Under the pieces are notes generated by a model. The model did not search any database and was not told the origin of the DNA. It saw only the letters and a program-made list of their open reading frames with translations. Positions 8,281 to 49,300 of a stretch of DNA of 64,000 nt are shown here, piece by piece. The DNA is from Leeuwenhoekiella sp. MAR_2009_132. Its GTDB lineage: Bacteria > Bacteroidota > Bacteroidia > Flavobacteriales > Flavobacteriaceae. Location of the stretch: contig NZ_JHZY01000004.1 in assembly GCF_000687915.1 (NCBI RefSeq), positions 441,501-505,500 of the forward strand, read 5' to 3'. A program made the translations under genes and the position numbers. The stretch's first letter is position 1; every line of letters starts with the position of its first letter.

Positions 8281-9150
8281 TTACATCTTTTGTATTTGAT
8301 CAATTACAAAAACGTGCGGAAATGTAATCGCCGCTAAAAAAGAAAACAAAATAGGAAGCAGCATAGCAACATCTGTACCCACGAAAAAATATACTCCCAA
8401 AAGTCCTAAAATCGAAAAAAACCAATAGATAGCAGAGCTTTTTATATATCTAAATATGCTACTTCGGGAAACATCTCCATATAAAAAAATAAGCTGATCG
8501 TTAAGCGAAGGAATACTATGCCAAATCACAAAGTAAATAGCAAAACCCCAAATTAAGGGAGTACTACTAAAAATGATGCTAAATATAAGTAGGTAGAACC
8601 CTTCTAAAACAAAATTACAAGTTAGCAGATTTCGGTACACGTACGTAAGAATAAACAGAATACCGAGGCTTGTTAGTAACAGAGGAAGAAACCAACTTAA
8701 CGGCACCTCAAATGCCGTCAGGTTTACTACCACTTCCTGAACTTCAAGGGGATTAAAATAAAATAAGAGCAAGAAAATAGTTAGACCATAAAAAAACGCA
8801 TAAATCTTAGTTTTACGTGCTCTAGATATAAATTGGTTACTCCAATGCTGTTCTCCAAAATGATAGGCACTTATACCTATAAATAAAAGTAATGCACTTG
8901 TAGGCAATAGATAAAAACAAACCGCTCCTAGAATTACGATTAGTATATAAAACAAGAGATAGCGCCACTTAGAATTCAAATTACTTTTTGTAGCATCTAA
9001 ATTCACAAGAAGCTTAATGTCATTTGAACCATGTAATACTCCTATGGTCAATATTAGAATAAGACCACAAAAATTTTCACCCCAGGGTGTTAAAAAAGAA
9101 CTTACCCAGAGTAAAAAAAAAGTTATGATTATTAATAATGACCTCAACAC
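8281..9150 (-). CDS. blh: Brp/Blh-family beta-carotene 15,15'-dioxygenase
   Basis: A 289-residue integral membrane enzyme that cleaves beta-carotene into two retinal molecules, the chromophore of proteorhodopsin. It has about eight hydrophobic helices and the iron-ligand histidines of the Brp/Blh family: His40 (VLHGSNDIK), His97 and His102 (AYHFGEQHW), His211 (IWHSIPSLNDQ) and His279 (FPHVFVID). The gene is divergent from the proteorhodopsin gene with a 105-base intergenic region, the usual genomic pairing. Known substrate use comes from characterised marine Blh proteins; here it is inferred from motifs and context. Confidence 0.93.
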   Translation of the reverse strand: MLRSLLIIITFFLLWVSSFLTPWGENFCGLILILTIGVLHGSNDIKLLVNLDATKSNLNSKWRYLLFYILIVILGAVCFYLLPTSALLLFIGISAYHFGEQHWSNQFISRARKTKIYAFFYGLTIFLLLFYFNPLEVQEVVVNLTAFEVPLSWFLPLLLTSLGILFILTYVYRNLLTCNFVLEGFYLLIFSIIFSSTPLIWGFAIYFVIWHSIPSLNDQLIFLYGDVSRSSIFRYIKSSAIYWFFSILGLLGVYFFVGTDVAMLLPILFSFLAAITFPHVFVIDQIQKM

Positions 9151-9255: not shown

Positions 9256-9993
9256 ATGAAAACTTTTACAATGACTTTTAGTGCCATTGCACAAATGGCG
9301 ACAGACGACTACGTTGGCTTCACCTTTTTTGTGGGAAGCATGGCTATGATGGCTGCATCAGCGTTTTTCTTCTTATCAATGAACGACTTTGACCGTAAAT
9401 GGAAAACTTCAATTCTAGTCTCAGGATTAATTACATTTATTGCAGCCGTACATTACTTCTATATGAGAGGATACTGGGAAGACTATTCAGAATCACCTAC
9501 CTTCTTTAGATATGTAGACTGGGTTCTTACCGTACCTTTAATGTGTGTTGAATTTTATCTGATTTTAAGAGTTGCGGGTGCAAAACGCTCTTTAATGTGG
9601 CGCCTTATTTTCCTTTCTGTTGTAATGCTGGTTACAGGTTACATCGGGGAAACTATTTATCGTGATCAGGCACAAATTTGGGGCTTAATTTCGGGTATCG
9701 CTTACTTTGTAATCGTATACGATATCTGGCTGGGAAGTGCTAAAAAACTAGCAACTAGTGCCGGTGGGCACGTTTTAAAAGCACACAAGACCTTATGTTG
9801 GTTTGTTTTAGTAGGCTGGGCAATTTATCCTTTAGGATATATGGCAGGAACTCCCGGATTTTATAGCGGCTGGTTTGATGGTCTAAGTATGGATGTTATT
9901 TATAACATTGGTGATGCAATTAACAAAATAGGATTTGGCCTGGTTGTATATAATCTCGCTATAATGTCTACCGAAAATAAGAAAACTGTTTAA
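9256..9993 (+). CDS. Proteorhodopsin, light-driven proton pump
   Basis: A 245-residue seven-helix retinal protein of the inner membrane. Helix C carries Asp88 (proton acceptor), Thr92 and Glu99 (donor), the DTE triad of proton pumps, in RYVDWVLTVPLMCVE. His66 matches the conserved His75 that pairs with the acceptor. Retinal binds Lys224 in helix G (GDAINKIGF). The tuning residue corresponding to position 105 is Met96, as in green-absorbing flavobacterial pumps. In helix E, Gly143 aligns with Phe152 of the SAR86 protein, leaving room for a carotenoid. It has its own downstream terminator and lies divergent to blh. Confidence 0.97.
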   Translation: MKTFTMTFSAIAQMATDDYVGFTFFVGSMAMMAASAFFFLSMNDFDRKWKTSILVSGLITFIAAVHYFYMRGYWEDYSESPTFFRYVDWVLTVPLMCVEFYLILRVAGAKRSLMWRLIFLSVVMLVTGYIGETIYRDQAQIWGLISGIAYFVIVYDIWLGSAKKLATSAGGHVLKAHKTLCWFVLVGWAIYPLGYMAGTPGFYSGWFDGLSMDVIYNIGDAINKIGFGLVVYNLAIMSTENKKTV

Positions 9994-10060: not shown

Positions 10061-10075
10061 TTTTTATATGTTATG

Positions 10076-10150
10076 TCTAAAATCTACATACGCTCAGGAA
10101 CCTCTATTCCCAATAAGCTAAAAGCTGATGCTATCACTTCAATAACTTTT
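10076..10150 (-). repeat. Duplicated 3' end of argS (left copy of a 75-bp direct repeat)
   Basis: These 75 bases match 15443-15517, the 3' end of argS, at 72 of 75 positions. The minus-strand reading ends EVIASAFSLLGIEVPERM then TAG, the ArgRS C-terminus, with an intact frame over about 22 codons. Two of the three differences are silent. The rest of argS is absent here: to the right the match ends and the lipoprotein terminator begins. The copy therefore marks a junction between the proteorhodopsin flank and the 5.3-kb signalling cassette. Confidence 0.93.
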
Positions 10151-10223: not shown

Positions 10224-11288
10224 TTAAATTTTAGAAAAAACAATTTTAAAACTACTGTCTGTTCTGCTCTCAAGTTCTATTTTGCTTGAAGTCTGAGAAA
10301 TTACTTTAAAAGTACCATTGAGAATTGAAAAACTAGAGTTTCCTTCAAATTCTAAATCAAGAAGAACCACAGTCTCTGACTCAGTCTCAAACTCAGCTTC
10401 GACATTTTCTAAAATATTTGTAACCTTATTACGTACTTTAACTTGGCCATCATTTGCAAAATTAAATGTAAAATTTGCAAAATTTGACGTAAAATCTGCT
10501 CCTGCTTTAATGCCAGAATCGATTTTAAATGTAGTATCACTTAGAAAACCTTCTAGTTCTTTTCTCAAATTTAAGGCTTCTGCTTCTGCTTCATCTTCTA
10601 AATCATCACTCGCTTCACACGATTCTAGTTGCTCTGCAAATTCAAGATCAGAATTTATAGCGATCTGGCTATTACTTTCAGAAGACGCACTTATAGGATA
10701 TTGAATACTAAAAAATTGATTCTCATCTAGGCCGCTAATAAAAGTATAAGTCTCTTGTTTACTAGTTAAGACAACGCTTCCTGTTTGTTGTGCATTTGCA
10801 TCAAAAGTAAAAACGCGTATTGGGAAGTTAAGATCTAAACACGAGATTGCGTCGTCTCTTGTTTCATCACTGCTTTCGCAAGTTTTCCTTAAAGCGTCAA
10901 ACTCTTGTTGATTTGCAATGGTAACTTTAGAATAGTTACTTAACTGCACTTGTATAGGATACTGAAATTCTACCGAATCATCATCATTTGTAAATTTTGC
11001 AAAAAGTTCTGCAACAAGACTAAGACTAGACTCACTAACTAAAGTTACTTCTTGACCATTTATAGTTGCTACAACAGGAAATACGATAGAAGCACAACTA
11101 ATCCCATCTAGTATATCATCGTTAGACCCATCAGAAGCATTATTACGCGTTAGTAAATCTGCAGTTTTTGAATTAGACGCATTAGTCTCACTTCCTTGAT
11201 CTATGTAAACGTCCTCTTCGTTTTGACAGGAGGTAAACAAAAGTGTAGCAATCGTAAAAATTCCTAGTATTGATTTCAAATTTTTCAT
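10224..11288 (-). CDS. Secreted lipoprotein with duplicated Cys-bounded domain
   Basis: A 354-residue protein with an SPII signal (LLFTSCQ, lipidated Cys21) and an acidic linker, so it is probably anchored in the outer membrane. It contains two similar modules: Cys65-Cys137 (SCASIVFPVV ... VEFQYPIQVQL ... ANQQEFDALRKTC) and Cys150-Cys224 (SCLDLNFPIR ... FSIQYPISAS ... NSDLEFAEQLESC). Each module starts and ends with a Cys that could form a disulfide. A coiled acidic segment (230-250) leads to a beta-rich C-terminal domain. The gene is divergent from the ECF sigma gene and carries the same promoter motif as the fecR-TonB receptor pair, so it is a probable regulon member. The ligand is unknown. 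Confidence 0.8.
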   Translation of the reverse strand: MKNLKSILGIFTIATLLFTSCQNEEDVYIDQGSETNASNSKTADLLTRNNASDGSNDDILDGISCASIVFPVVATINGQEVTLVSESSLSLVAELFAKFTNDDDSVEFQYPIQVQLSNYSKVTIANQQEFDALRKTCESSDETRDDAISCLDLNFPIRVFTFDANAQQTGSVVLTSKQETYTFISGLDENQFFSIQYPISASSESNSQIAINSDLEFAEQLESCEASDDLEDEAEAEALNLRKELEGFLSDTTFKIDSGIKAGADFTSNFANFTFNFANDGQVKVRNKVTNILENVEAEFETESETVVLLDLEFEGNSSFSILNGTFKVISQTSSKIELESRTDSSFKIVFSKI

Positions 11289-11334: not shown

Positions 11335-11363
11335 TAAGACAACTTAAAATCTATTTACCCTAC
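11335..11363 (-). promoter_or_regulatory. Candidate ECF-sigma promoter of the lipoprotein gene
   Basis: On the minus strand GTAGGGTA (11356-11363), a 12-base spacer and GTTGTCTTA (11335-11343) lie 46 bases before the lipoprotein start codon. The same two boxes with the same spacer length occur at 11960-11988 upstream of fecR. The length and layout are those of an ECF -35/-10 pair. Confidence 0.75.
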
Positions 11364-11432
11364 CTCAAAAATAATAAAGATTAATTTTGTTATTTTTTAA
11401 TTTATAATAAGCTCCTGTAATTCCCTAATGCT

Positions 11433-11951
11433 TTGAAAATTTCAGAATTAAATAATTTATGTAAAGAAACTGTATTTCAGAATTTTTATATTTCTCTAAT
11501 ACAAGGCGCAAAAAATTTTGCATTCTATAAATGTGGAGATGAGTCACAGGCACTTGACTTAACACAAGAGGCATTTATTAAAATTTGGGAGAATTGTAAT
11601 CGTATTGAATTCTCAAAAGCAAAAACTTATTTATTTACGACTATAAATAATCAATTTTTAAATAGTGTAAAGCATCAAAAAGTTGTGCTTAACTATGAGA
11701 AAAAAACTCTTACCGAGGATCGCTCTTTTCAAGATCCTGAATTTATACTGGAAGAACAAGAATTTAAATCAAAACTACGAACTGCAATCTCTAATCTGAG
11801 TGAAGGTCAGCGAGAGGTTTTTTTAATGAATAGAATTGACGGAAAAAAATACAAAGAAATTGCAGAACTGTTAGACATTTCAATCAAAGCCGTAGAAAAA
11901 AGAATGAGTCTAGCTTTAAAAGCATTGAGAGCTGAAATACCTAATATCTAA
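11433..11951 (+). CDS. RNA polymerase ECF sigma factor (FecI-like)
   Basis: A 172-residue sigma-70 family protein with only regions 2 and 4. Region 2 is seen as DESQALDLTQEAFIKIWEN (about residues 36-54) and the following YLFTTINNQFLN. Region 4 contains LSEGQREVFLMNRIDGKKYKEIAELLDIS and the recognition helix IKAVEKRMSLALKALR. It would direct RNA polymerase to extracytoplasmic-response promoters under control of the FecR-like anti-sigma that follows. The start must be the TTG at 11433: an in-frame stop lies at 11418 and no ATG is available before conserved sequence. A candidate vegetative -7 box TAATTTTG lies at 11382-11389. Confidence 0.93.
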   Translation: MKISELNNLCKETVFQNFYISLIQGAKNFAFYKCGDESQALDLTQEAFIKIWENCNRIEFSKAKTYLFTTINNQFLNSVKHQKVVLNYEKKTLTEDRSFQDPEFILEEQEFKSKLRTAISNLSEGQREVFLMNRIDGKKYKEIAELLDISIKAVEKRMSLALKALRAEIPNI

Positions 11952-11959
11952 ATATCTAA

Positions 11960-11988
11960 GTAGGGTATTTCAAATTATGGTTGTCTTA
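11960..11988 (+). promoter_or_regulatory. Candidate ECF-sigma promoter of the fecR-TonB receptor operon
   Basis: GTAGGGTA (11960-11967), a 12-base spacer and GTTGTCTTA (11980-11988) lie in the 54-base gap between the sigma and fecR genes. The boxes are identical to those before the divergent lipoprotein gene. Transcription from here would give a leader of only about ten bases before the fecR ATG at 12006. Confidence 0.75.
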
Positions 11989-12005: not shown

Positions 12006-12917
12006 ATGGAAAATGAAAAAAACATATTAAAATGGCTTAATGGCGAAATGAGTCCTTTAGAATTAGAAGCATTTAAAAAAACCTCTGATTATAAAAAATA
12101 TGCTCAAATAGCGAATTATTCTACTAACCTGAAGACTGAGCAATTAGATTTGACAAAAAGCTATGCAGATTTAAAGACTAAATTAGAAGAAAGAACCAAA
12201 TCAAAATTAGTAACACCTAATTTTAAATGGATGGGTGCTGCGGCTGCGGCGGTAGTAATTTTATTATTTTCAACCTACTTTATTTTTAGTGAGCGGCAGA
12301 TAGATACCGTAGCCAAAGTTGCACAAACAAAACAAACACAACTACCTGATGCTTCAGATGTTCTGCTAAATTCGGAAAGTAGGCTTTCTTACACTATTAA
12401 AGAGTGGAAAAAAGGGAACCGTGAAGTAAATTTAGAAGGCGAAGCCTTTTTTAAAGTAACAAAGGGAAGCGATTTTAAGGTAACAACAACTACAGGAGTT
12501 GTACAAGTTTTAGGAACTCAGTTTAATGTAAGAGATCACAATGATTATTTTGAAGTGCAATGTTATGAGGGCAGAGTGCGCGTAACTTTTAATAATCAAA
12601 AAATAATTCTATTATCGGGTGAGCGGTACCGTTTTATAAATGGCTCAGGAGAAAAAATAGACGGCCTTGCTGCCAAACAACCATCATGGATTACAGATGA
12701 AAGCAATTTTGATGAGGTACCTGTTAAATACGTGATAAATGAATTAGAACGAAAGTACGATGTGAAAATCACTACTGAATATATAGACCTAAAGCAATTA
12801 TTTACGGGCAGTTTTAGTACAACAGATTTAGAAAAAGCTTTGAAATCTGTGGCTATTCCCTTAGGATTAAATTTTGAATATATAGGAAAGAAAACCATTC
12901 GCTTGTATGCAAATTAA
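12006..12917 (+). CDS. FecR-family anti-sigma factor
   Basis: A 303-residue inner-membrane regulator. A short cytoplasmic N-terminal domain (residues 1-73, LKWLNGEMSPLELEAF) would hold the sigma factor, a single membrane helix spans about 75-94 (MGAAAAAVVILLFSTYFIF), and the periplasmic part has a FecR domain (LPDASDVLLNSESRLSY ... GTQFNVRD) followed by a DUF4974-type C-terminal domain (FDEVPVKYVINELERKYDVKI). In this family the periplasmic part senses the signalling domain of the partner TonB receptor. It overlaps that receptor gene by 11 bases, so the two are translationally coupled. Confidence 0.94.
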   Translation: MENEKNILKWLNGEMSPLELEAFKKTSDYKKYAQIANYSTNLKTEQLDLTKSYADLKTKLEERTKSKLVTPNFKWMGAAAAAVVILLFSTYFIFSERQIDTVAKVAQTKQTQLPDASDVLLNSESRLSYTIKEWKKGNREVNLEGEAFFKVTKGSDFKVTTTTGVVQVLGTQFNVRDHNDYFEVQCYEGRVRVTFNNQKIILLSGERYRFINGSGEKIDGLAAKQPSWITDESNFDEVPVKYVINELERKYDVKITTEYIDLKQLFTGSFSTTDLEKALKSVAIPLGLNFEYIGKKTIRLYAN

Positions 12918-15447
12918 AAAGTGGTACATTCTAATCATAATTTTGTTATATGTAAACCTGCCTGGTTATACTCAAAATAATCAAGGTCAGGCTCTAGAGC
13001 AATTGCTAACTCAACTGGAAAATCAATTTGATGTTAAATTCTCATACGGCGTAAAGACTATTGCAGATTTTAAAGTACCATCAAATTTAAAGTTTAGTAC
13101 GCTTAACGAAGCTCTTATATTTTTAAATACTAAAACCTCCTTTGAAGCAATAGCACTAGATGAGCGGTATATTACCATCTCTCCTTCTAAAAAAAACATC
13201 TCACTCTGTGGGGTGGTAACTGATTCAGAAACAGGTGAAATATTACCGGGTGCTAGTATAAGTTTAAGTAAAAATCAAGGCTCTATAGCAAATAATAATG
13301 GTGCTTTCAGCATCGTTACTGAAACAGTAAATCTTAACATCTCAATTTCTTTTATTGGCTATAAAACCTCTACTATACCTGTAAAAGAGCTAGTCTCAAC
13401 TACCGGAAATTGCTTAAATATACCGCTTACACCAGAGAAAATTAATTTAGAAGAAATTGTAATTACTCGGTTTCTCACTAGAGGGTTACAACGCAGTCAG
13501 GATGATAAATTAATCATTAACAGTAAAAAATTTGGTATTCTGCCGGGACTCACAGATCCCGATGTTCTACAAACTATACAAGTGTTACCGGGCATAGAAA
13601 GTATTGATGAAAGTTTAAACAATATTAATGTACGAGGTGGTACTCAAGACGAAAATCTAATGTTGTGGGATGATATAGTTATGTATCATTCAGGTCATTT
13701 TTTTGGGTTGATTTCGGCCTACAATCCCAACCTCACAGAACGCGTAGAAGTAGGAAAAAATGGAACTTCTTCAGAATATAGTGGTGGTGTTAGCGCCACT
13801 GTAAGTATGTTTACTTCAGATAAAATAGACAAAAACTTAACAGGCAGCGTGGGTTTAAATGCCCTAAGTACAGATGCATTTCTACAGATACCTTTAAGTG
13901 ATAAACTTGCCTTTCAATTTTCTGGCAGAAGATCTCTAACAGATCAATTGCAAACACCTACCTATAAAGCCTATTACAAACGTAGTTTTCAGGACTCTGA
14001 AATTAATAATCAACAAGAAACTACAAATCCAAATCAACAAACCTCCTCAGATTTTTCGTTTTACGATTATTCAGGGAAAATGCTTTACAATTTCAACGAC
14101 AAGCAAAAAATACGCTTAAGCTTTATCAAAATTAGCAATGATCTTTTTTATGAAGAAACTACTACCGAAGAGAATATTCCCGCTAAACAAAGTCAATTAT
14201 CACAAAAAAATCTAGCCTTTGGTGTAAATCTCAGCTCCACGTGGTCCAACGCGTACACGACCTATATAAATGCTTATTATACCAAATACAATATAGATTC
14301 TGAAGAGTTTGAAACAGCTTCGCAACAGCAATTAGATCAAGAAAATGAGGTGTTAGAAACCAGTATAAAATACAAAGGCACACTACTATTATCTCCACAA
14401 CTAAGTTGGTTGCATGGATATCAATTTATTGAAACCGGAATACGCAATGTAACTCGTGTTAACCAACCTCTTTTTAACCAACGGCAAAAAAACGTATTAC
14501 GGAGCCACAGTATATTTAATGATTTATCTTTAGAATATAAGGGGCTGTTTCTTAGATCTGGTGTACGGGTTTCATATTTTGAAAAATTTAAAAAGCTTCG
14601 CATTGAGCCCAGAATTAATGCCCGGCAAAAGTTTGCAAACTACTTCTCAGTAAAACTTCAGGGTGAGTTTAAATATCAGACCGCCACTCAAATTATTGAT
14701 TTTGAAAATGATTTTCTAGGCGTTGAAAATAGACGATGGATTTTAGCTAACGATAATGATATCCCACTTATACGCAGTAAACAACTATCTCTGGGTTTTG
14801 ACTACAATCATCGGGGCTGGCTTATAGACATAACAGGGTTTTATAAAAGGGTCTCTGGTATTACAGCTTCAAATCAAGGTTTTCAAAATCAATTTCAATT
14901 CATTAAGACTTCAGGAAGTTATACTGCAAATGGTATTGAAGTTATTTTGAACAAAAATTTAAGCAACGCAAGTGCTTGGCTTACCTATACGTTTTCACAA
15001 AATGATTATACCTTTGAAAAATTAAGCCCAGCTTCGTTTCCTAACAATACAGATATTAGACATTCCTTTACGCTAGCAACAAATTATGCAATCTTTAAAA
15101 ATTTAAAAATTGCAGCTGGTGCAACATACCGAAGTGGCAGACCATATACAAAACCTATTGAGCCAGAAACCTTACCAGCTGGCAATAACTATAGCGTTGT
15201 AAATTATGGATTACCTAACGCCGAAAATCTAGATGATTTTTTTAGGTTAGATGCTTCTCTAGCTTATGAATTTAAGTGGCAAAAAGTTATGTCAAAATTT
15301 ACTGTAGGCGTTCTCAACATTCTAGATACTCAAAACACAATTCAGCAGTATTATGAAGTTAATCCTGAAAATAGACAAGAAACCCTAGCTATCGTAAATA
15401 CTTCGCTAGGAATTACGCCCAATGCCTCCTTACGCATAAATTTCTAA
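12907..15447 (+). CDS. TonB-dependent outer-membrane receptor with STN signalling domain
   Basis: An 846-residue transporter-sensor. After a signal peptide (about residues 1-22) come an STN/secretin-N domain (about 25-97, ALEQLLTQLENQFDVKFSYG) that would contact FecR, a carboxypeptidase-like beta-sandwich (about 100-180, GVVTDSETGEILPGASISL), a plug (DPDVLQTIQVLPGIESI ... NINVRGGTQDENLMLWDD) and a 22-strand barrel ending in RINF. No SusD gene follows, so this is not a glycan-type SusCD pair; the divergent lipoprotein may be its surface partner. Candidate cargoes include iron complexes or other scarce ligands, but the sequence does not identify one. The gene ends 3 bases before argS. Confidence 0.93.
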   Translation: MQIKKWYILIIILLYVNLPGYTQNNQGQALEQLLTQLENQFDVKFSYGVKTIADFKVPSNLKFSTLNEALIFLNTKTSFEAIALDERYITISPSKKNISLCGVVTDSETGEILPGASISLSKNQGSIANNNGAFSIVTETVNLNISISFIGYKTSTIPVKELVSTTGNCLNIPLTPEKINLEEIVITRFLTRGLQRSQDDKLIINSKKFGILPGLTDPDVLQTIQVLPGIESIDESLNNINVRGGTQDENLMLWDDIVMYHSGHFFGLISAYNPNLTERVEVGKNGTSSEYSGGVSATVSMFTSDKIDKNLTGSVGLNALSTDAFLQIPLSDKLAFQFSGRRSLTDQLQTPTYKAYYKRSFQDSEINNQQETTNPNQQTSSDFSFYDYSGKMLYNFNDKQKIRLSFIKISNDLFYEETTTEENIPAKQSQLSQKNLAFGVNLSSTWSNAYTTYINAYYTKYNIDSEEFETASQQQLDQENEVLETSIKYKGTLLLSPQLSWLHGYQFIETGIRNVTRVNQPLFNQRQKNVLRSHSIFNDLSLEYKGLFLRSGVRVSYFEKFKKLRIEPRINARQKFANYFSVKLQGEFKYQTATQIIDFENDFLGVENRRWILANDNDIPLIRSKQLSLGFDYNHRGWLIDITGFYKRVSGITASNQGFQNQFQFIKTSGSYTANGIEVILNKNLSNASAWLTYTFSQNDYTFEKLSPASFPNNTDIRHSFTLATNYAIFKNLKIAAGATYRSGRPYTKPIEPETLPAGNNYSVVNYGLPNAENLDDFFRLDASLAYEFKWQKVMSKFTVGVLNILDTQNTIQQYYEVNPENRQETLAIVNTSLGITPNASLRINF

Positions 15448-46351: not shown

Positions 46352-49300
46352 ATGAAAACAAGATTACATGGTTTCCTAACACTATTAGTAGTGTTAATCA
46401 TGCAAATTTCATTTGCACAAACAAAGACCGTATCAGGTACTGTTACGGACGACACGGGAGTACCACTCCCAGGAGTTAATGTTGTAGTTAAAGGCACAAC
46501 TCAAGGAACTCAAACAGATTTTGACGGTAAATTCTCGATTTCTGCTTCAGAAGGGGGAGTTATTGTATTTTCTTATGTTGGTTTTGCTAATAAATCACAG
46601 ACCGTTGGATCCTCAAATACAATGAATATTTCGCTTGAAGCTGGCGAAATACTTGATGAAGTAGTTATCAATGCTCTGGGCATAGAAGTTGATAAAGCTA
46701 CTCAAGCATCCTCTATTTCTGAGGTTAGTGCTAGCTCTGTTCAATCTTCTGGAGAAACTAGCATAACAAAAGGACTTGCAGGTAAAGCATCTGGTGTACA
46801 AATCATAAGTTCATCCGGAGATGCTGGTTCTAGTGCATTCATACAAATACGAGGTCAAAGTACTATTACAAGAAGCCTACAACCATTAATTGTTGTTGAT
46901 GGTATCCCTATCAGTAACGACGAGGTAGGTAATGGTGTTGGAGGAGTTACACAACAGTCTCGCTTAGGAGACCTAAATCCAAATGACATTGCAAGCGTTA
47001 AGATTCTTAAAGGAGCTTCTGCTGCTGCATTATGGGGGGCTAGAGCAGGAAATGGAGTTGTTGTAATTACAACTAAGAAAGGAAAGGGAATGGATAAAGG
47101 CTCATTAAAGGTGTCAATATCTTCAACCGTGAGTTTTGACGAAACTAATGATGTATTAGACACTCAAAGTATTTTTGGGCAAGGATCTAATGGCTCTTAC
47201 GCAGGAGGAACTCAAGCAAATTCCTGGGGTGATAAAATAAGCTCACGAGCTGGTGGCCCAGACGATGTAAATTCTTCTTCTCCAAATTATTTTGTTGCCA
47301 GAGATGGTACAACTTACTATCCAATTTTAGCAAAAAACAGCAGAGAAAATTTTAACGATTCTAATTACGACGCGGTAATTAATCAAGGTTTATATCTTGA
47401 GAACAATATTAGCCTAAGTGGTGCAACTCAATCAGGAAATTATTTTGTTAGCGTAAGCGATCTTAAGCAGGATGGTATAATAAAAAACAATGATTACAAT
47501 AGAGTATCATTAAGGCTTAATAGCGAATTTAAACTAAGTGATAAAATAAGATTCACAGGTACTTCTACCTTTTCACAAATTAATTCTAATAGAATTCAAC
47601 AAGGTTCAAACACTTCCGGCCTTCTATTAGGACTATATCGTAATCCTGCCGATTTTGATATCAGAGACTACATTGGCACACGATATACAAATGGCGTTGT
47701 GAGTACTACAAATAGTCAGCGCGCATATAGAAGAGGACTTGGTACTACAGATAGACAATCTCCTATATACAATAACCCATTATGGACAACAGATGTTCAA
47801 CAAAACCCTAATACCGTCGAACGCTATATTATGGGAGGTCAATTCAATTACAATGCGCAAGATTGGCTAACCTTAATCGCAAGAGCCGGTATTGATCACT
47901 ACACAGATGAAAGAAAAAGTATATTTCCTATAAACTCTGCAGAAGCAAATGGTAGCGGAAGCGCTACTGAGCGTCTATATACGAGCACACAAACTAACAT
48001 AGATTTTATTGCCCAGGGAGATTTTTCCATTTCTGATAAATTTGATTTCGGATATCTAATGGGAGCTAACTTCAATAGAAGATTAAGCGAAACCCGTGGT
48101 GGTGGATATACCAATTTTATATTAGACACTCAAAAGTTTTTCTACGATAATGCGGTTATTGCAAACAGGTCAACAGTTATAGGTGAAAGTGAAGTCCGCA
48201 TTATGGCCGGTTATGCTCAAGCAAATTTCAGCTACGACAACCTACTATATTTAAACCTTACTGGTCGCGCTGAAACGGCCAGTACTTATGGTGATTCTAA
48301 AACATTTTTCTATCCTTCAGCAGAATTAGGTTTCCAATTTAGCAATCTTATTGAAGACAGAGAACTTCTTTCTAACGGTAAACTAAGATTTACTTTTGGT
48401 AAAGTAGGTATAGAACCGGCAGCCTACGCCACAAACACTTACTTTGTAAATGCTTCTGGAGCTGAAGGTTACGGACCAGCATATGATGCTGGAGCCTATG
48501 ATGGCTCTTTCGTCAGAAGTGGTGTTCAGGGGAACGCAAACCTAGAGCCAGAAAAAAAGACAGAATATGAAGCAGGTATAGACTTAGGATTCTTCAATAA
48601 TAGACTTACATTAGGAGCAACATACTATTATAATGAAACAGAAGATGCTTTATTTACCGTAGCTATACCTGGATCAACAGGTTTTTCAGGACGTTATGAC
48701 AATGCTGCTTCACTCGAAAATAAAGGTTTAGAAATAGACTTTAGCTTTGATTTGATCAAGACAGAAAATTTTAGTTGGAACATCTATGGTAATTACTCAA
48801 GAAACAGAAATAAAGTAACTTCTCTTGAAGGAACTGAATCTCTCTTTCTAGCTGGCTTTACAGGAGTATCTTCTAGAGCCGTAGAAGGGCAACCAGTCGG
48901 AGTTTTATGGGGTGGGCGTTATGCTAGAAATGATGACAACTCTTTAGCTTTAGACACACGTGGATTTCCTACAGTAGCCCTAACTGAAGGAGTGATCGGA
49001 GACCCAAACCCAGATTGGAGAGGGGGGCTAGGAACATCAATTAGCTTTAAAGGTATTACAATAAGCACTCTTTTTGATGCTTCAATTGGCGGAGATGTTT
49101 GGGATGGCACAAATGGCGCACTTAATAACTTCGGAAGAACTCCAGAAACAGCGAATGAAGTTACAGTTACTGCTGCACAAGCCAACACTATAATAGCTGC
49201 AAACGGTCAAACAATTGCTCAAAGACCACAAGCTGTTACAAATCCAGATGGATCAATAACTATACGAGGAAATATAGCTGATTTTGGAGCTGGACCCCGT

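Follow-up and report, generated by a model that had tools for sequence, protein, structure and literature searches.

A bipartite motif shared by a divergent lipoprotein gene and a fecR–TonB transducer operon as the likely promoter of an ECF sigma factor in Flavobacteriaceae

In the 64,000-nt stretch of the Leeuwenhoekiella sp. MAR_2009_132 genome that was analysed (contig NZ_JHZY01000004.1, positions 441,501 to 505,500; hereafter, the window), the gene for an ECF sigma factor lies between two copies of a bipartite motif, one of which precedes a divergent lipoprotein gene and the other a fecR–TonB transducer gene pair. Based on sequence comparisons, it is very likely that both motifs are −35/−10 promoters of the intervening sigma factor, and signalling similar to that of FecI-FecR-FecA is proposed to fire both of them. 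Targeted searches of an open library listed no description of the cassette or the motif. Sequence comparison suffices to trace one sigma clade across many Flavobacteriaceae, together with its likely promoter and a small regulon, and it gives a regulatory context to a lipoprotein family that Pfam does not cover. The predictions, namely two start sites and a handful of target genes, are directly testable in non-pathogenic marine strains.

Genes and motif copies of the cassette

The lipoprotein gene (10224..11288, minus strand) encodes a 354-aa product with a signal peptide and Cys21 (CQNEED). The latter stretch resembles the minimal surface-export signal of C. canimorsus, given as Q-A-(D/E)2 in PMC5080379, with N for A, although a signal of another genus may not apply here. 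The lipoprotein is composed of four beta-hairpin-plus-helix units (residues ~64–225), a long helix and a C-terminal lipocalin-like barrel (~243–354), and resemblance to the potempin/lipocalin fold is confined to this C-terminal domain. No Pfam or NCBIfam family matched the protein over the cut-off, and no SusD family was found among the Pfam or NCBIfam matches up to an E-value of 1.

The remaining three genes are located on the plus strand. The sigma factor gene (11433..11951; TTG start assumed) encodes a protein of 172 aa that matches Pfam Sigma70_r2 and Sigma70_r4_2 over the cut-off; this length, together with regions 2 and 4 and no long extra domains, fits an ECF sigma factor. Its closest NCBIfam model is TIGR02985, with 125.1 bits against a cut-off of 126.4 (1.3 bits short). 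The gene for a FecR-type transmembrane anti-sigma/sigma regulator (12006..12917, 303 aa; Pfam FecR PF04773 and FecR_C PF16344 over the cut-off) starts 55 nt after the sigma gene, and is followed by that for a TonB-dependent transducer (12907..15447, 846 aa; Pfam CarbopepD_reg_2 and Plug over the cut-off). The transducer comprises a putative periplasmic signalling domain (residues 28–91), which matches FecR_C below the cut-off only (E-value, 0.005), a carboxypeptidase-regulatory-like domain (101–186), a plug (220–294) and a presumed barrel.

The lipoprotein-side site (11335–11363, minus strand) reads GTAGGGTA-AATAGATTTTAA-GTTGTCTTA, and the fecR-side site (11960–11988, plus strand) reads GTAGGGTA-TTTCAAATTATG-GTTGTCTTA. 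Both spacers are 12 nt long, and the boxes are identical at 17/17 positions, while the spacer letters and the flanks differ. The positions, the 17 identical box positions, the equal spacer length and the differing spacers had been noted in an earlier sequence-only reading of this DNA, and all of them proved exact on re-search. The predicted sigma-type promoter of the lipoprotein gene consists of a −35-like box GTAGGGTA (11356–11363) and a −10-like box GTTGTCTTA (11335–11343) on the minus strand, and that of the fecR–transducer genes of GTAGGGTA (11960–11967) and GTTGTCTTA (11980–11988) on the plus strand. Each site is oriented toward its gene, and the gap between its end and the ATG is 46 nt for the lipoprotein and 17 nt for fecR. 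Upstream of the sigma gene itself the window holds no copy of the motif, the best match there having 8 mismatches, so another promoter presumably determines how much sigma factor is made.

When up to 3 mismatches were allowed, the window yielded 3 matches, while its shuffled versions averaged 0.15 and 0/100 of them reached 3; the match additional to the pair is at 48233 and differs at 3 positions. The whole genome (4.28 Mb) contains 9 sites at this threshold, i.e., the exact window pair and 7 others, each with 3 mismatches. These 7 represent background, since the reversed pattern yields 16 sites in the same genome. The sequence-only reading had proposed a search of this genome and of its relatives, with the background frequency of the motif as the test. 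The 4.28-Mb search revealed no site with fewer than 3 mismatches beyond the window pair, the extra sites appear only at 3 mismatches (7 versus 16 for the reversed control), and in relatives the motif recurs in their cassettes.

Conservation of the cassette and of the promoter pattern

The gene order, with the lipoprotein gene divergent from the ECF sigma–fecR–TonB transducer genes, is recurrent in flavobacteria. Among 60 genomes, the lipoprotein (E-value, 1e-3) was found in 20 and the sigma factor (E-value, 1e-25) in 19, all of which are within the 20; in the same genus, both are present in the same 6 of 13 genomes. The fetched regions contain 26 divergent cassettes, the window counted, and 25 of the 28 lipoprotein matches of relatives lie inside a cassette. 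The exceptions are L041, a contig of 4.5 kb, L043, where the match is at a contig end, and L042, where the match is weak (E-value, 8e-13) and no divergent sigma gene was found within 8.8 kb upstream. A further set was obtained by scanning titled genomes with lipoprotein peptide patterns alone, and the best 80 of 123 loci were analysed. Removal of 23 loci that overlap the earlier ones left 57, which are mutual relatives, and all 57 (from the best 80 of 123) carry the full cassette.

In alignments of six same-genus loci, the box columns are invariant on the lipoprotein side, as are the GTAGGGT and TGTCT columns on the fecR side, and the spacers vary on both. The boxes drift among the 26 cassettes, and the pattern [AC]GG-N17-TGT[CT], written after these drifting boxes had been seen, matches on both sides in 25 of them, with 0 fecR-side matches and 1 lipoprotein-side match on the opposite strand. 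In L062 neither side matches, and the lipoprotein-side match of L056 is 1.9 kb away from the lipoprotein gene. Because the pattern was composed after viewing the first sites, it was tested on new loci. Among the 57 further loci (from the best 80 of 123), it occurs on the fecR side in 56 and on the lipoprotein side in 36, with no match on the opposite strand of either; on the sigma-ward strand of the lipoprotein–sigma gap it is found in 0/57. The single fecR-side miss, L182, carries GGCGTCTTA. The 21 lipoprotein-side misses are altered at the T (15 loci) or the G (5 loci) of TGT, or in the −35 box (1 locus).

The lipoprotein-side misses have an altered box and an unchanged spacer length. In the 79 sigma-bearing loci of the best 80 of 123, there are 23 lipoprotein-side misses (altered at the T of TGT in 17, at its G in 5 and in the −35 box in 1), and all of them fit best at spacer 12 when spacers of 9–16 are allowed. 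With the spacer left free between 6 and 19, a spacer of 12 was the best in 79/79 lipoprotein-side and 77/79 fecR-side regions, the remaining two of which favour 14, and the best matches carry 0–3 mismatches on either side. In the opposite-strand control, which covers just the lipoprotein side, the best matches are spread over 14 spacers; spacer 12 was recorded there in 18/79 regions with ties broken toward 12, and the mismatches average 4.9 (best, 3). On the lipoprotein side, a stretch resembling AGAAAG is located after the −10 box.

Probable dependence on the cassette sigma factor

Within the genus, sites with at most 1 mismatch were found in 6/6 genomes with the cassette and in 0/7 cassette-free genomes, one of which is 81% complete; the reversed control gave 1 match, in G006. 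Two of the genus sites are outside the cassette: one precedes an unlinked gene for a His-rich protein (G004), and the other is located 90 nt before an outer-membrane barrel gene in G006, an assembly with 9% contamination. The presence or absence of the element together with the cassette speaks against its being an operator at which a DNA-binding regulator acts on ordinary sigma-A promoters. Such a transcription factor would likewise need a conserved bipartite element before several genes. However, the element is asymmetric, is oriented at its gene and keeps a rigid spacer, its distance from the gene in the window suits a promoter, and no DNA-binding protein besides the sigma factor was recognised among the four cassette products by the Pfam scan. 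Moreover, the TGTC/TGTT of its −10 half is similar to −10 elements of ECF type in Bacteroidota, for which a TGTT motif (PMC12596196) and a CGT box (PMC9723704) have been described. An operator is, therefore, a very improbable explanation of the boxes.

The sequence-only reading had attributed both promoters to the sigma factor encoded between them. In support of this, the boxes of the two sides agree on average at 15.0/17 positions within a cassette and at 12.2 between cassettes (n = 25), a result reached by 0/100000 permutations, whereas the spacers show no excess likeness within cassettes (P = 0.063). Joint changes are few by parsimony, so the permutation result overstates the independence of the cassettes. 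In a tree comprising 97 sigma sequences, the two sides agree at −35 position 6 in 97/97 cases, with 2 changes, both of them shared. At −10 position 6 they agree in 92/97 (1 shared change; 2 changes on the fecR side and 4 on the lipoprotein side), and at −10 position 8 in 80/97 (1 shared change; 13 and 5, respectively). In 46 cassettes, the identity of residue 158, which lies in the region-4 recognition helix, goes with the base at −35 position 6: of the 36 cassettes with G there, 35 have M, and of those with A, 10/10 have I. This covariation is what recognition by the sigma factor would give, and it is confounded by descent.

Alternatively, the sites may be true ECF promoters that mostly serve another ECF sigma factor in the cell. 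F. psychrophilum is reported to have 7 ECF sigma factors, the regulons of which may overlap (PMC9723704); a first look at the genome studied here gave 29 sigma candidates, one passing an E-value of 1e-25. Nevertheless, the 7 cassette-free genomes of the genus lack the site at up to 1 mismatch, box changes track recognition-helix changes of the cassette sigma factor, a correlation confounded by descent, and the pattern is absent upstream of fecR at the four other FecR_C-type loci found in this genome. Reading by another sigma factor is thus very improbable. A chance pair, or a local duplication by which one site arose from the other, can practically be dismissed: this genome by itself offers only two sites, but their spacers and flanks differ, across species the boxes stay while the spacers vary, and the pattern was recovered in 57 further loci (from the best 80 of 123).

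Taken together, recurrence at a fixed spacer, co-occurrence in the genus, the likeness of boxes within cassettes (with few independent changes), the covariation of residue 158 (confounded by descent) and the other fecR loci without the pattern support the claim that one sigma factor would read both promoters. The second claim of that reading, that the lipoprotein belongs to the same system as the TonB receptor, is borne out as predicted membership in the sigma regulon, which is well supported by these comparisons.

Predicted wider regulon in relatives and proposed working

In 299 genomes of the family, exact GTAGGGTA-N14-TGTCTTA was found at 58 sites in 26 genomes, the reversed control giving 2. 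According to the downstream gene, 16 of these sites belong to fecR, 22, including one in L039 at a distance of 396 nt, to the lipoprotein gene or its duplicate, 12 to a gene for a His-rich protein and 4 to a second lipoprotein type, i.e., 54/58 precede one of these genes; 2 others precede small membrane proteins, and 2 have no obvious member downstream (L157 and L162). Eleven of the 12 His-rich assignments were made from their sequences, and that of L149 via its titled copy, L207. The protein in question is a secreted His/Cys/Tyr-rich one of ~150 aa (e.g., L143 11491–11946, L153 6020–6463, L158 6412–6861, and L172–L175), and the one member scanned has no Pfam family over the cut-off.

In the best 80 of 123 loci, the lipoprotein gene is accompanied by a metallopeptidase-like gene in 74, an outer-membrane barrel gene in 70 and a His-rich gene in 24. 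The metallopeptidase-like protein has an HExxH motif, recognised by eye, and a Reprolysin_3 match below the cut-off. In these same 80 loci, a site with spacer 12 and no more than 2 mismatches precedes the His-rich gene in 24/24 cases, the barrel gene in 1/70 (the gene at L210 8525–9115, with an exact site) and the peptidase gene in 0/74, as expected if the peptidase is co-transcribed with the lipoprotein. The 60 genomes contain a His-rich match in 5. Four matches are strong, all in cassette genomes but unlinked to the cassette, and all with the pattern upstream, that of G006 having a −10 box, CTTGTTATA, different from that of its cassette; the fifth is weak, in a genome that has neither the cassette nor the site. 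The genome studied here has no His-rich match. In Leeuwenhoekiella, a metallopeptidase homologue is present in 13/13 genomes, with the cassette or not, and it is absent from the motif sites of the genome studied here; the genus keeps a minimal form of the regulon.

Several variants were observed among the relatives. In a second cassette clade, the lipoprotein is replaced behind the same motif by a Cys-rich lipoprotein with similar-looking FxYP...VNS repeats (L160 7434–8882, L161 5185–6525, L163 7251–8729, and L165 6405–7430; no family over the cut-off). In L143, L144 and L169, the lipoprotein gene is duplicated in tandem and every copy is preceded by a separate site; two tandem sites stand ahead of the second copy in L143, and L144 has a one-mismatch site. 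The small membrane-protein ORFs of L155 (6858–7372) and L170 (7654–8185), which are alike by eye, follow unlinked exact sites. The exact sites of L157 (6638–6666) and L162 (6586–6614) have no recognised regulon gene downstream, the ORF following the latter encoding 161 aa with no family over the cut-off. In L039, the own boxes of which are of the GTAGGAGT type, an extra window-type site is located 396 nt upstream of the lipoprotein gene; the genome has more than one such sigma factor, and cross-talk between paralogous sigma factors is possible.

A working by analogy with FecI-FecR-FecA is proposed. A ligand would bind the TonB-dependent transducer, the putative periplasmic domain of which would signal to FecR, and FecR would then activate or release the sigma factor. 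RNA polymerase with this sigma factor would start at both motifs, giving a fecR–transducer transcript and a divergent lipoprotein transcript. More receptor would act as positive feedback and more FecR as a brake, and the two together may shape the response. As the recurrent predicted output of the system, the lipoprotein is probably exposed on the cell surface, where it would either assist the receptor by capturing the ligand or serve as an effector. Given the His-rich target in relatives, metals are the first candidates for the inducer that are worth testing.

Similar to E. coli FecI-FecR-FecA as described in PMC9249621, an ECF sigma factor, a FecR-domain regulator and a TonB-dependent receptor are encoded together, and a sigma-type promoter is predicted on the receptor transcript and none at the sigma gene. 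According to that source, fecIR of E. coli forms one transcript under sigma-70 and is not autoregulated, and FecI controls a single promoter. Here, in contrast, a sigma-type promoter is predicted between the sigma gene and fecR, both in the window and in 56 of the 57 further loci (from the best 80 of 123), which would place fecR in the target operon, although read-through from the sigma gene may also occur. The divergent lipoprotein gene would be a second target, and several relatives add more. The SusC/SusD systems of Bacteroides polysaccharide loci, as presented in PMC3878776, likewise combine an ECF sigma factor, a membrane anti-sigma factor and a TonB-type outer-membrane porin, and they include a surface lipoprotein, to which the probably surface-displayed lipoprotein of the cassette would correspond. 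Unlike in those loci, the lipoprotein described here has no SusD match and is divergent rather than beside the receptor, and the cassette contains no glycan enzymes. The same source describes ECF promoters as challenging to predict and TSS data as necessary for doing so, whereas here the promoter candidates emerge from comparison alone. ECF sigma factors can be numerous in Bacteroidota, with 50 reported for B. thetaiotaomicron (PMC12596196).

A more tentative suggestion, possible rather than probable, is that the sensor of this flavobacterial FecI-FecR variant includes the lipoprotein. With its N-terminal part of unassigned fold, the protein may capture the ligand at the surface, or be a substrate or inhibitor of the metallopeptidase that adjoins it in relatives, and thereby inform the transducer of the state of the envelope or of metals. 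The barrel fold is shared, at 11% identity, by potempin E of Tannerella forsythia (8ehc/8ehd), which has no counterpart of the N-terminal repeats of the lipoprotein; in further difference, no such peptidase gene neighbours the lipoprotein gene in the same-genus loci L177–L181. If this suggestion is true, the lipoprotein, the peptidase, the outer-membrane barrel and the His-rich secreted protein would form a compact regulon readable from sequence across many genera.

The surroundings of the cassette also have features of their own. A 78-nt direct repeat (95%) at window positions 10073–10150 and 15440–15517 copies the junction of the transducer end and the argS 3′ end beyond the far side of the cassette. 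It looks like a local duplication scar, because argS is located near the transducer gene in 13 of the 26 fetched regions. Next to the cassette are a proteorhodopsin-like gene (9256–9993) and a carotene-cleaving (blh-like) gene (8281–9150), both recognised by eye, and DNA similar to the rhodopsin-like gene is also close to the cassette in L046 and L047.
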